From a virus: 44,018 nucleotides of DNA. Under the pieces are notes generated by a model, which did no database searches, was not told the origin of the DNA, and was given only the letters and a program-made list of their open reading frames with translations. Made by a program: the position numbers and the translations under genes. How positions within the stretch are numbered: the stretch's first letter is position 1; each line of letters begins with the position of its first letter. Location: IMG/VR virus record IMGVR_UViG_3300003323_000390, positions 1-44,018 of that record, one strand, 5' to 3'. Positions 3,504 to 43,465 of the stretch are shown in pieces.

Positions 3504-3596
3504 TTAAGTCGCTTTCTTTGTTCTCCGGTAATACTGGCGCATGAAGGCCATCCATCCCCATTGCTCCCAATGCGCGTTCATGGTTCTCGCACTCAT
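3504..3596 (-). CDS. Miniprotein (30 aa)
   Basis: ATG at 3596 overlaps the upstream stop as ATGA (3593-3596). It encodes 30 aromatic and basic residues (MSARTMNAHWEQWGWMAFMR, then QYYRRTKKAT). It fills the only gap between two coupled genes, and its stop codon lies inside a copy of the dispersed AAGTCRCTT word. Support comes from position and coupling; no homology is recognised. Confidence 0.5.
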   Translation of the reverse strand: MSARTMNAHWEQWGWMAFMRQYYRRTKKAT

Positions 3597-3784
3597 GTCC
3601 AGCTTGGTTCAAAGCCCATCTGGCGAGCAACGATTTCGCCAGTCACGTAGCTCTGTGTTCCGAGTTCGATAATCGTTTGCGGATTCTCGCGACTCGGCGC
3701 GTAAAGCTGGATATTGCCTACGTCGTTGCGAAATAGCTCGCAAGTGGTCGTTTCTGCAATGATGGAGATGAAATGGCAGTTCAT
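3593..3784 (-). CDS. Hypothetical protein (63 aa)
   Basis: Start ATG at 3784 (MNCHFISIIAETTTCELF) is four bases after the stop of the upstream gene. A longer frame up to 3940 would overlap that gene almost entirely, so the short start is preferred. The short beta-rich product ends GEIVARQMGFEPSWT. Function unknown. Confidence 0.55.
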   Translation of the reverse strand: MNCHFISIIAETTTCELFRNDVGNIQLYAPSRENPQTIIELGTQSYVTGEIVARQMGFEPSWT

Positions 3785-3788
3785 GGGG

Positions 3789-4076
3789 CTATCTGAAGAA
3801 ATAGACGAAATCATCACGGTCGAGGTCATGTTTGTTTTCGGGATGCTTTTCAAAAACGAAAAGCCACTTTTGGTATTCGCGGAGTTCCTTTTGATAATCG
3901 TAAAACATAGAAAGCCATGCGCTTGAATCCAAAGAATCAAATTTTCCAGATTCTTTTTTCTCCTTCACGTGATCTTGAAGCAACTTGATTTGACACTCGA
4001 TTTCTTCAATGCGCTTTTTCGTCACTTCCGCAAGAACGCTTCCCGTGTAGGTAAATTCCCAATTCGATCTGTTCAT
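3789..4076 (-). CDS. Hypothetical coiled-coil protein (95 aa)
   Basis: First gene of the leftmost transcription unit, 16 bases below the palindromic element at 4092-4115, with GAGGATTGG as a likely ribosome site. Helical and charged (VTKKRIEEIECQIKLLQDHV), probably a coiled coil, with an aromatic, acidic C-terminus (DRDDFVYFFR). No family recognised. Confidence 0.65.
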   Translation of the reverse strand: MNRSNWEFTYTGSVLAEVTKKRIEEIECQIKLLQDHVKEKKESGKFDSLDSSAWLSMFYDYQKELREYQKWLFVFEKHPENKHDLDRDDFVYFFR

Positions 4077-4091
4077 GCACCAATCCTCGCG

Positions 4092-4115
4092 AATTCCCGT
4101 CTATAGTCAACAATT
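4092..4115 (-). promoter_or_regulatory. 24-bp palindromic element, copy 1 (upstream of 4076 gene)
   Basis: Reads AATTCCCGTC, TATA, GTCAACAATT on the plus strand. In gene direction the proximal half is GACGGGAATT, the form shared by most copies. It lies in the 42-base gap between two minus-strand genes, just upstream of a start. It does not place a sigma-70 -35/-10 pair at the right spacing, so operator or phage-specific promoter are the open readings. Confidence 0.7.
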
Positions 4116-4118
4116 ATT

Positions 4119-4403
4119 TCACAGCATCCGCTCCTCGTTCAGCGTCATTGCTCGCGCCAACGTCGCGAGACTGTGCATCGCGTTCTCTCGAATCTGTTCT
4201 GCAAGCTCGCGATTCGTGCAGTCGATGCTCTGCCAAGTCACTTGCTGGACCTTGCGAATGGCTTCGATTACGCCTTCGCGCTCGATGATGTATTCACGCT
4301 GCTGCGCGTCGAGTTTCGAGCGCTTCCAACCGTAACGATACGTGCATTTCTCAGCCAGGATTTCGCCAAGAAGCTCGCGAAATTGCTCTGCGGGGTTGTC
4401 CAT
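4119..4403 (-). CDS. Hypothetical helical protein (94 aa)
   Basis: Starts MDNPAEQFRELLGEILAEK and is helical throughout, with ENAMHSLATLARAMTLNEER at the C-terminus, a style common in phage early proteins that accompany replication genes. It is the last gene of the unit starting at 8229; the next palindromic element follows its stop. Function unknown. Confidence 0.65.
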   Translation of the reverse strand: MDNPAEQFRELLGEILAEKCTYRYGWKRSKLDAQQREYIIEREGVIEAIRKVQQVTWQSIDCTNRELAEQIRENAMHSLATLARAMTLNEERML

Positions 4404-4412
4404 TCATCGTGG

Positions 4413-41553: not shown

Positions 41554-41555
41554 GG

Positions 41556-41981
41556 CTACATCGGAATATCATCGCTATCATCCAAGTCCGGCGTTTTCAC
41601 AGTAGCTTCGCGCTCACTCGGCGAGGGGCTGGTTGATTCGCCCTTTCGGCCATTCGGCAAAAACTGGAAATCCTCGCCAGTCACCTTTAGCTTCGTGCGC
41701 TTCTGGCCGGTGGCCTTGTCGTCCCACGAATCCAGTGTCAGGCGGCCAGAGCAATATAGCGGGTCGCCCTTCTTGACGTATTCGGCCAGTAGTTCCGCCG
41801 ACTTCCCAAAGTAGACGAGATCAACAAAGGTCGTCTCTTCGTGCTTGTTTCCTTGGTCGTCTTTCCATGCGCGATTGATGGCAAGACCGACATCGGCAAT
41901 GGCTGTTCCCTTCGGGGAATATTTGACTTCGATCTGGCGGGTGACATTGCCCATAAGGGCTACGTGATTGAGGTTCGGCAT
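41556..41981 (-). CDS. ssb: Single-stranded DNA-binding protein
   Basis: 141 residues with the SSB OB-fold pattern: MPNLNHVALMGNVTRQIEVK, INRAWKDDQGNKHEETTFVD, LVYFGKSAELLAEYVKKGDP, CSGRLTLDSWDDKATGQKRT, and the acidic tip DLDDSDDIPM. SSB binds single-stranded DNA in replication and recombination. It is not next to the Sak4-like ATPase (11.8-12.8 kb), which would be its usual partner. Confidence 0.88.
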   Translation of the reverse strand: MPNLNHVALMGNVTRQIEVKYSPKGTAIADVGLAINRAWKDDQGNKHEETTFVDLVYFGKSAELLAEYVKKGDPLYCSGRLTLDSWDDKATGQKRTKLKVTGEDFQFLPNGRKGESTSPSPSEREATVKTPDLDDSDDIPM

Positions 41982-41983
41982 GG

Positions 41984-42247
41984 TTATTTCGTCGGGGTTT
42001 GCTGGTTGAGTTGTTTCATGATTGGGTCCGGATCGAGCCCGAAAAGTTGTCTACCGGTTAATTCGATTCCTGCTGCTTTTTCTAGCCGCTCAAGACGGAA
42101 AAGCGTCGAGTTAATAAACCAAGATGCGAATACAAACAGAATTATAGCTGAAATTCCATTCCAGCAGCCCGAATTAGATTTCGCATATCGCTGATCCAAT
42201 TCTTTAAGCTGCCAGTAATCAAATTTCGATTTTTGTTCGTGGTTCAT
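41984..42247 (-). CDS. Membrane protein (87 aa), single helix
   Basis: ATG at 42247 (MNHEQKSKFDYWQLKELDQR) overlaps the upstream stop by ATGA. One transmembrane helix (GISAIILFVFASWFINSTLF) then a soluble tail (RLERLEKAAGIELTGRQLFG). Function unknown; placed with SSB and packaging genes. Confidence 0.6.
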   Translation of the reverse strand: MNHEQKSKFDYWQLKELDQRYAKSNSGCWNGISAIILFVFASWFINSTLFRLERLEKAAGIELTGRQLFGLDPDPIMKQLNQQTPTK

Positions 42248-42453
42248 TTCCGAAACCCCCTCGCCCATTCTCCCTTAACGCGAGACATTACATCCAAGGC
42301 ATCGCACATCGCGACATCTTCCACCGTCACGCAATTGTCGCTGATAAGCCGCAGCGGGCCTTCTTGCAGTGCGTTCATGCCGTCTTTCCACCAGATGCGC
42401 TTGTTGCCGAAGAGCATTTGTAGGGGATGTTGGCGGTATTTGATGCGACTCAT
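42244..42453 (-). CDS. Hypothetical protein (69 aa)
   Basis: Starts MSRIKYRQHPLQMLFGNKRI; basic, helical C-terminus (VAMCDALDVMSRVKGEWARG). Overlaps both neighbours by ATGA. Function unknown. Confidence 0.6.
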   Translation of the reverse strand: MSRIKYRQHPLQMLFGNKRIWWKDGMNALQEGPLRLISDNCVTVEDVAMCDALDVMSRVKGEWARGFRK

Positions 42454-43139
42454 GCTTTGATCTGTGCGATGATTTCCGACCCGTAGGCATTGCGAGTAAG
42501 TGCAATGAATTCATCCAGGGTCATCGTGTCTTTATCCACATCGATACCATGCTGACGCGCGAATGCCTCTCGGCCTGATTGACAAGAACCGGTCAATCGA
42601 CCGTGCCAGTCGAAGAATAGGCGAGCAGTATGTTTCTTTTTGGGGTCCAGATTCAAGCGACGGAATTCCTCCAGTCGCTCCTCGGTAGACATTTGGGCGA
42701 CGAGCTTTGCTTGGAGCGCATCGACGGCAGAGCGAGCAGTATCACCGTGGGCGTAGGTATAACCAATAGATGACGAAGCGCGTGCGATGTAGCATGGCGA
42801 TTGAGAAAAATCGGCTAGATTGATTGTGAATCCCTTGGCTAGATTGCCGCGATGGCTGGATACGATGGTTGGAACGCCATCAATATAGTCGACTTGTTGA
42901 GAGTTGAGCGACTTAACGCCGTAGCCGTCGCCGTAGCCGTAGCCGTCGCCGTAGCCGTAGCCGTAGCCGTAGCCGTAGCCGTAGCCGTAGCCGTCGCCGT
43001 CGCCGTCGCCGGAGCCGGAGCCGGAGCCGGAGCCGGAGCCGGAGCCGGAGCCGGAGCCGGAGCCGGAGCCGGAGCCGGAGCCGGAGCCGTAGCCGTAGCC
43101 GTCAAATGATGGTGGAATGTAAAATTTCAACGCTTCCAT
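42450..43139 (-). CDS. Gly-Tyr/Ser-Gly repeat protein (229 aa)
   Basis: N-terminal MEALKFYIPPSFDGYGYG, then a run of GSG, GDG and GYG dipeptides (residues ~13-75) coded by the hexamer array at 42917-43103. The C-terminal domain (VDYIDGVPTIVSSHRGNLAK, SPCYIARASSSIGYTYAHGD, ARSAVDALQAKLVAQMSTEE) matches a widespread phage family with N-terminal GYG-type repeats and an AHG motif; function unknown. The repeat length is a multiple of 6, so copy-number change preserves the frame. It overlaps the 43127 gene by 13 bases. Confidence 0.75.
   Translation of the reverse strand: MEALKFYIPPSFDGYGYGSGSGSGSGSGSGSGSGSGSGSGSGSGDGDGDGYGYGYGYGYGYGYGDGYGYGDGYGVKSLNSQQVDYIDGVPTIVSSHRGNLAKGFTINLADFSQSPCYIARASSSIGYTYAHGDTARSAVDALQAKLVAQMSTEERLEEFRRLNLDPKKKHTARLFFDWHGRLTGSCQSGREAFARQHGIDVDKDTMTLDEFIALTRNAYGSEIIAQIKA
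42917..43103. repeat. Hexanucleotide tandem array (GCCGTA/GCCGTC/GCCGGA)
   Basis: About 31 units of GCC followed by GTA, GTC or GGA; the longest homogeneous block is GCCGGA. Encodes alternating Gly and Tyr/Asp/Ser on the minus strand. All three frames on the opposite strand are open through it, a by-product of the repeat. Likely to vary by slippage. Confidence 0.9.
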
Positions 43140-43429
43140 ACAGGAACACCCTCGATGGATTTGCGGGCCATTTCGGTCGTTGGGATGATTTCGATCACAC
43201 CTATAACCACGATTTCAGGAACGGCAGCCGGAAACCGACATGAATCCGGCTGAGTGGTTCCGTCTTGCGACAGTTGCGACAGCGTTGCCGCCCCGGCCCA
43301 TTGCCAGATGCGACGCGCGTTAGTGAGTGTTACTTCATCGCCCTCGCGCGAAGAGAGGATTCCGGCGAAAACGCCAGCCTGCGCGGCGCGGATGATGACG
43401 TATTGATTGATGTATTTGGTGTTTTTCAT
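43127..43429 (-). CDS. Phage protein of DUF6948-like type (100 aa)
   Basis: Starts MKNTKYINQYVIIRAAQAGV; the pattern YVIIRAAQAGVFAGILSSRE, LTNARRIWQWAGAATLSQLS and EIIPTTEMARKSI is a common small phage family (tentatively DUF6948) of unknown function. First gene of the right-hand minus unit, 36 bases below the palindromic element copy 10. Confidence 0.75.
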   Translation of the reverse strand: MKNTKYINQYVIIRAAQAGVFAGILSSREGDEVTLTNARRIWQWAGAATLSQLSQDGTTQPDSCRFPAAVPEIVVIGVIEIIPTTEMARKSIEGVPVWKR

Positions 43430-43465
43430 TGGGGTAAAAGTGACTTGCGATTTCTGTTCTCGCAG

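Follow-up and report, generated by a model that had tools for sequence, protein, structure and literature searches.

A dispersed, all-or-none nine-base word, AAGTCRCTT, in a 44-kb viral genome: DNA-level selection and a candidate phage-encoded reader

The viral record IMGVR_UViG_3300003323_000390 of IMG/VR, analysed here from position 1 to 44,018 (44,018 bases, hereafter the window), carries the nine-base word AAGTCRCTT in 25 exact copies, 12 on the plus and 13 on the minus strand, spanning positions 3506 to 43438-43446. This feature is real, unusual and DNA-level, and a function of the word as DNA, under selection specific to this phage lineage, is well supported. The explanation that we slightly favour over its rivals, with confidence somewhat short of even, is that a DNA-binding protein made by the phage, dimeric and with roughly two-fold symmetry, recognises the copies as dispersed sites.

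All copies listed in an initial annotation of this DNA, which had called the word massively over-represented, are present, and the Markov-background count proposed there as a check leaves it an outlier at orders 2-5. Simulations at orders 2, 3, 4 and 5 gave mean copy numbers of 0.8, 1.0, 1.1 and 3.4, with maxima of 4, 4, 4 and 10 in 100 runs; the order-5 mean is inflated because AAGTCRCTT itself feeds the model. These counts exclude a chance origin, and the word read backward, used as a control, has no copy in the window. By significance, no dispersed 9-mer in the window ranks above AAGTCRCTT, whose two forms have -log10 P values of 17 and 11; the remaining frequent 9-mers belong to a tandem repeat at 42918-43100. 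When 17 phages were scored in the same way, the best dispersed 9-mer of ordinary genomes reached about 5-8, the uptake signal of Haemophilus phage HP1 reached 23, and three phages (G001, G006 and G007), each with its own word, reached 13-17. A literature search on AAGTCRCTT itself returned no relevant match.

The word is sharply bounded. Its one-letter neighbours occur 22 times against 18.5 expected, which is background, and AAGTCRCTT is therefore all-or-none; only AAGTTRCTT (5 copies) and AAGTCGATT (4 copies) look slightly raised. Preferred flanks had also been proposed, correctly in part: G never precedes the word, C never follows it, and C is mildly preferred at position -2. In the full motif, HAAG-TCR-CTTD, the 3-bp arms and the flank rule are symmetric, whereas the centre is only partly so. 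The word takes two forms, AAGTCGCTT (16 copies) and AAGTCACTT (9 copies), and only the latter nine are true odd palindromes, the arms being symmetric and the TCR centre not. Among the eight possible symmetric AAGYSRCTT readings, TCA/TGA and TCG/CGA alone are used, with one copy of AAGCCACTT and none of AAGCCGCTT; symmetric alternatives with a CC centre have none or one copy. The 25 sites are as follows (ORF, open reading frame).

3506-3514, +: AAGTCGCTT, 7 bp ahead of the start of gene 3188-3499 (-)
4235-4243, +: AAGTCACTT, within gene 4119-4403
5324-5332, -: AAGTCGCTT, within the sliding-clamp gene 4628-5755
6591-6599, -: AAGTCGCTT, within the PAPS-reductase/DUF3440 gene 6471-7688
8162-8170, +: AAGTCGCTT, within ORF 7861-8229
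9402-9410, -: AAGTCACTT, within the helicase gene 8270-9745
11158-11166, -: AAGTCGCTT, within ORF 11038-11262
13934-13942, -: AAGTCGCTT, within the ParB/HTH-type gene 13265-14341
14854-14862, -: AAGTCGCTT, intergenic
15414-15422, +: AAGTCACTT, within the Holliday-junction resolvase gene 15164-15616
18350-18358, -: AAGTCACTT, within gene 18078-19136
22210-22218, -: AAGTCACTT, intergenic according to the gene calls used
24694-24702, -: AAGTCGCTT, intergenic, 11 bp past a tRNA-Arg gene
25054-25062, +: AAGTCGCTT, within the weakly called gene 25017-25352
26906-26914, +: AAGTCGCTT, within gene 26865-27461
30038-30046, +: AAGTCACTT, within gene 29695-30429
30379-30387, +: AAGTCGCTT, within gene 29695-30429
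32351-32359, +: AAGTCGCTT, 18 bp ahead of gene 31041-32333 (-)
33485-33493, +: AAGTCACTT, within gene 33322-33618
34510-34518, +: AAGTCGCTT, major capsid gene; KATL also in relatives L013 and G001, by other codons
35867-35875, +: AAGTCGCTT, within gene 35073-35972
36869-36877, -: AAGTCGCTT, portal gene; PSRL also in relatives L011/L012
40214-40222, -: AAGTCACTT, terminase gene; ESHL in the window, EAHL in relatives
41126-41134, -: AAGTCGCTT, gene 40856-41356; KSL in the window, KAL in relatives
43438-43446, -: AAGTCACTT, 9 bp ahead of gene 43127-43429 (-)

The placement of the sites is indifferent to genes, with statistics that rest on gene calls made in this analysis. Most sites are intragenic, every codon phase and both strands are used, and six of the 25 are intergenic (4.4 by chance, P 0.28), in agreement with the annotated mixture of genic copies in different frames and intergenic ones; six likewise lie within 50 bp of a gene end, against 4.8 by chance (P 0.34). 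The flanking DNA differs at each site. At 568 copies per Mb (1 per 1.76 kb), the sites are spaced more regularly than random, with a minimum distance of 341 bp (P 0.004) and a coefficient of variation (CV) of 0.58 (P 0.003); the long gaps described earlier are real, but the overall pattern is even rather than patchy. Orientation switches are rarer than chance (runs test, P 0.02), with eight consecutive plus-strand sites from 25054 to 35867, and no matching GC-skew switch was found in the window. For the Chi-like role once suggested, this amounts to a weak polarity within an overall balance of 12 to 13. A primase site is unlikely because the word is near-symmetric and occurs on both strands.

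The coding sequences give evidence for selection on the DNA. The proteins and the codon usage together predict 0.95 in-gene copies; the window has 18, a 19-fold excess. In the same codon test, 40 words made by shuffling the letters of AAGTCRCTT gave a mean of 0.5 copies and a maximum of 3. Comparison with the nearest relatives found, at about 50-70% protein identity, indicates that the word arose at conserved residues via synonymous or conservative changes. The capsid KATL is encoded by AAA GCG ACT TTG in the window and by AAA GCC ACC CTG or AAG GCA ACC TTG in relatives, and the serine of the portal PSRL by AGT rather than the TCG of L011/L012; at the sites within the terminase (A to S) and gene 40856-41356 (KAL to KSL), the word arrived with a small amino-acid change. 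The DNA-level function implied in the initial annotation is thus upheld, and since cousins conserve some of the encoded residues but not the word, the pressure is on DNA and lineage-specific. Enrichment in related phages, which had been put forward as a further check, did not appear: relatives L009-L014, compared over the structural module, hold 0-1 copies each, and one copy is present in the complete record (44.5 kb) of G001, the phage to which L014 belongs.

G001 (IMGVR_UViG_3300009553_000039; L096-L098) has instead its own exact 16-mer, GTATCGACATCGATAC, in 11 evenly spaced copies, whose repeats occur in IMG/VR in G001 and one 99.99% identical contig only. Phage-private dispersed words therefore exist in this lineage. 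Unlike AAGTCRCTT, the 16-mer is enriched near gene ends (P 0.02), and it may have a different job. Dispersed near-palindromes were also seen in other phages, namely TAACGTTA in 20 copies in G007 (L334-L336) and CTCCCGGAG in 15 copies in G006 (L331-L333).

The mirror-image arms and the matching flank rule fit a dimeric reader, for which the leading candidate, judging from sequence, would be the following product (HTH, helix-turn-helix).

13265-14341, -: putative ParB-type protein of 358 residues with an HTH_ParB-like region, candidate reader of the word

This protein matches phrog_1033 ('ParB-like partition protein') at E 4.9e-6 over residues 157-241, the HTH region, and Pfam HTH_ParB at E 0.17, too weak for the cut-off. 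No counterpart was detected in 16 comparison phages, no close relative was found in viral contigs, phages or loci apart from one weak plasmid match, and no solved ParB structure matched in sequence; a single-sequence fold model (predicted local distance difference test, pLDDT, 37) was too poor for use. KorB of plasmid RK2, a member of the ParB family, binds operators and slides away as a CTP-dependent clamp (PMC11790492). By analogy, the 13265-14341 product would read AAGTCRCTT as a dimer and load, in the style of a KorB/ParB clamp, at numerous sites that recur about every 1.8 kb. Once loaded, the clamp would coat the genome, mark it or organise it, and segregation, protection and global silencing are examples of what this might serve. 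We infer these steps, from the sites to this protein and on to its effect; a protein-coating site, as originally suggested, or a site for loading is possible. A clamp at 25 sites would explain their number, sharpness, symmetry, even spacing and gene-neutrality as well as the missing host. The fuller proposal that a ParB/KorB-like clamp of the phage loads at about 25 gene-independent, mostly coding sites as a self-recognition code, with cousins using other private words, is held only tentatively and may well be wrong.

Several points weigh against a phage-encoded reader. The tie between the 13265-14341 protein and the word is drawn by inference, with a weak family match and the low-scoring fold model; recognition is not fully symmetric, because only the TCA/TGA and TCG/CGA centres are used; and the sites are mostly intragenic, which is unusual among known phage operators. 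Moreover, the statistics fit an uptake signal such as that of HP1 equally well, and an unsampled host may carry AAGTCRCTT.

A second ParB-like gene (5752-6576) overlaps the PAPS-reductase/DUF3440 gene, in a pair that is common in phages and shows weak DndC similarity. This pair was rejected as the cause of the word: complete or long phages with it are without AAGTCRCTT, and for that reason the 5752-6576 product is the poorer reader candidate.

Among the alternatives, a DNA-uptake-signal-like word survives best, as a possibility that we would not ourselves expect to prevail. Here a naturally competent host would prefer AAGTCRCTT, and the copies would have been built by biased uptake and recombination, for which Hin-type uptake signal sequences (Hin-USS) in Pasteurellaceae prophages are the model. 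By form, the uptake-like role raised in the initial annotation is strong: HP1 has 525 USS per Mb (1 per 1.9 kb, a density close to that of the window), its USS is equally sharp (one-letter neighbours 9 against 7.5 expected), and it is likewise evenly spaced (CV 0.51, P 0.003). USS in general show significantly even spacing, lie within ORFs in 65% of cases and have no orientation bias (PMC1939737), and Hin-USS frequencies saturate near 750, with a cut-off of 100 for Pasteurellaceae phages (PMC6776037). However, Aaphi23 is as rich in USS yet uneven (CV 0.91), so even spacing is not diagnostic of uptake signals. The arms of AAGTCRCTT are symmetric, whereas known uptake sequences are not palindromic (PMC1939737). 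Temperate Pasteurellaceae phages accumulate USS and likely lytic ones are USS-poor (PMC6776037). The predicted window proteins scanned included no recognisable integrase or repressor. Thus, short-word excess, neutrality towards gene, frame and strand, and even spacing are found in the window, but host-chromosome enrichment was not found in the genomes scanned, and host evidence lends the uptake-like role little.

The search for a host covered all GTDB representatives (about 85,000 species), using pairs of flanked words that lie on one strand at a distance of 400-413 bases. It gave 91 matches against about 105 by chance, where a host at phage density would alone give 4-8; no species at that density appeared in this paired-word scan, although a host with half the phage density could be missed. 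Rich GTDB loci were discarded as a host signal, being local repeats only, in Limimaricola, Clostridia and Bacteroidia metagenome-assembled genomes. In two Limimaricola species (L137 and L110), the same locus holds a longer palindrome, TGAAAGTCRCTTTCA, in 5-7 copies clustered within a few kb; these could be operators or form an array resembling parS. A host in Verrucomicrobiota is plausible from sequence comparison, because the terminase family occurs there (13 of 289 genomes, against 0 of 200 in Pseudomonadota) and Verrucomicrobia phage P8625 is among the nearest named phages; in 388 Verrucomicrobiota genomes, AAGTCRCTT stands at background and none is enriched. Two paired scans of IMG/VR, each of which catches about one-sixth of such phages, returned only local repeat arrays among the matches listed. 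No terminase relative was found as a prophage in a scan of genome contigs, and the portal query yielded no relatives.

A HIP1-like word, which a host methyltransferase or repair system would make and keep as a near-palindrome in all resident DNA, appears improbable. It would suit a word that is near-palindromic, all-or-none and gene-neutral, and alternate HIPs track cognate methyltransferases (PMC4390886). Nevertheless, this reading requires an enriched host, which was found neither in the GTDB scan nor among the 388 Verrucomicrobiota genomes, and no methyltransferase was found among the predicted phage proteins scanned; a modification motif, also suggested at the outset, is accordingly possible provided that the enzyme is the host's. 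Cyanophage A-4L, the one examined, has zero HIP1, and phages therefore need not carry the host word.

Dispersed operators or stoperators of a phage repressor are very unlikely. A copy number of about 25 for one exact word in a phage of 44 kb would accord with them, but the sites favour neither gene ends nor gaps (P 0.28-0.34), and a separate 11-copy, 26-bp CTATAG palindrome, strictly intergenic, suits an operator role better; operator or stoperator use of AAGTCRCTT is not supported. Chance, codon or amino-acid bias, and tandem or mobile repeats are practically negligible: KSL (AAG TCG CTT) does yield five in-gene copies, but the Markov counts, the expectation of less than one in-gene copy given the proteins, the different flanks and the use of all phases are against them.

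The CTATAG palindrome forms a second dispersed family of about 11 copies (consensus TAATTCYYGNCTATAGNCRRGAATTA), all intergenic and several directly upstream of starts; from sequence and position they are probable operators or promoters.

26-bp CTATAG palindrome copies: 4091-4116, 8247-8272, 14663-14688, 14954-14979, 14978-15003, 22098-22123
26-bp CTATAG palindrome copies, continued: 23876-23901, 24714-24739, 30668-30693, 38544-38569, 43465-43490

Other features of the window include a perfect inverted repeat of 25 bp at the two ends of the contig (1-25 and 43994-44018). It lies within genes 3-719 (-) and 43513-44016 (+), which are alike in their last residues, and instead of true termini it may mark a fork in the assembly where these gene ends resemble each other. 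The tandem repeat at 42918-43100 has a six-base unit and encodes a Gly/Tyr/Ser/Asp-rich stretch (GYGSGSGDG) in gene 42450-43139, for which no family match was obtained. A response-regulator receiver domain is encoded at 17612-18052.

In capsid and portal genes, this sharp word takes precedence over codon choice, which shows strong and recent selection on the phage DNA itself. With a phage-encoded reader, the word would represent a new code for self-marking or genome organisation; as a host uptake signal, it would imply sequence-selective competence outside Pasteurellaceae and Neisseriaceae, and AAGTCRCTT would be a tag for finding the host.

Among known systems, the stoperators of cluster A mycobacteriophages (e.g., L5) have a similar copy number per phage, but AAGTCRCTT is not at gene ends and occurs on both strands. 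HIP1 (GCGATCGC) of cyanobacteria is likewise a highly iterated, gene-neutral near-palindrome, whereas AAGTCRCTT has an odd length with an R position and, in this analysis, no link to a methyltransferase or a host genome. Hin-USS (AAGTGCGGT) in HP1 shares the 9-bp core, the use of both strands, the background neighbours and the even spacing, but is non-palindromic and common to a known competent host, while AAGTCRCTT has no enriched host in the scans. In plasmid RK2, about 12 dispersed odd-length palindromes with a central S, the O_B sites, are read by a ParB-family protein. The window differs from this system in having 25 sites, mostly intragenic, of a shorter and not fully symmetric word with a putative reader, but resembles it in its dispersed odd-length sites; a ParB-type protein may, by a weak match, also be encoded on the same replicon.

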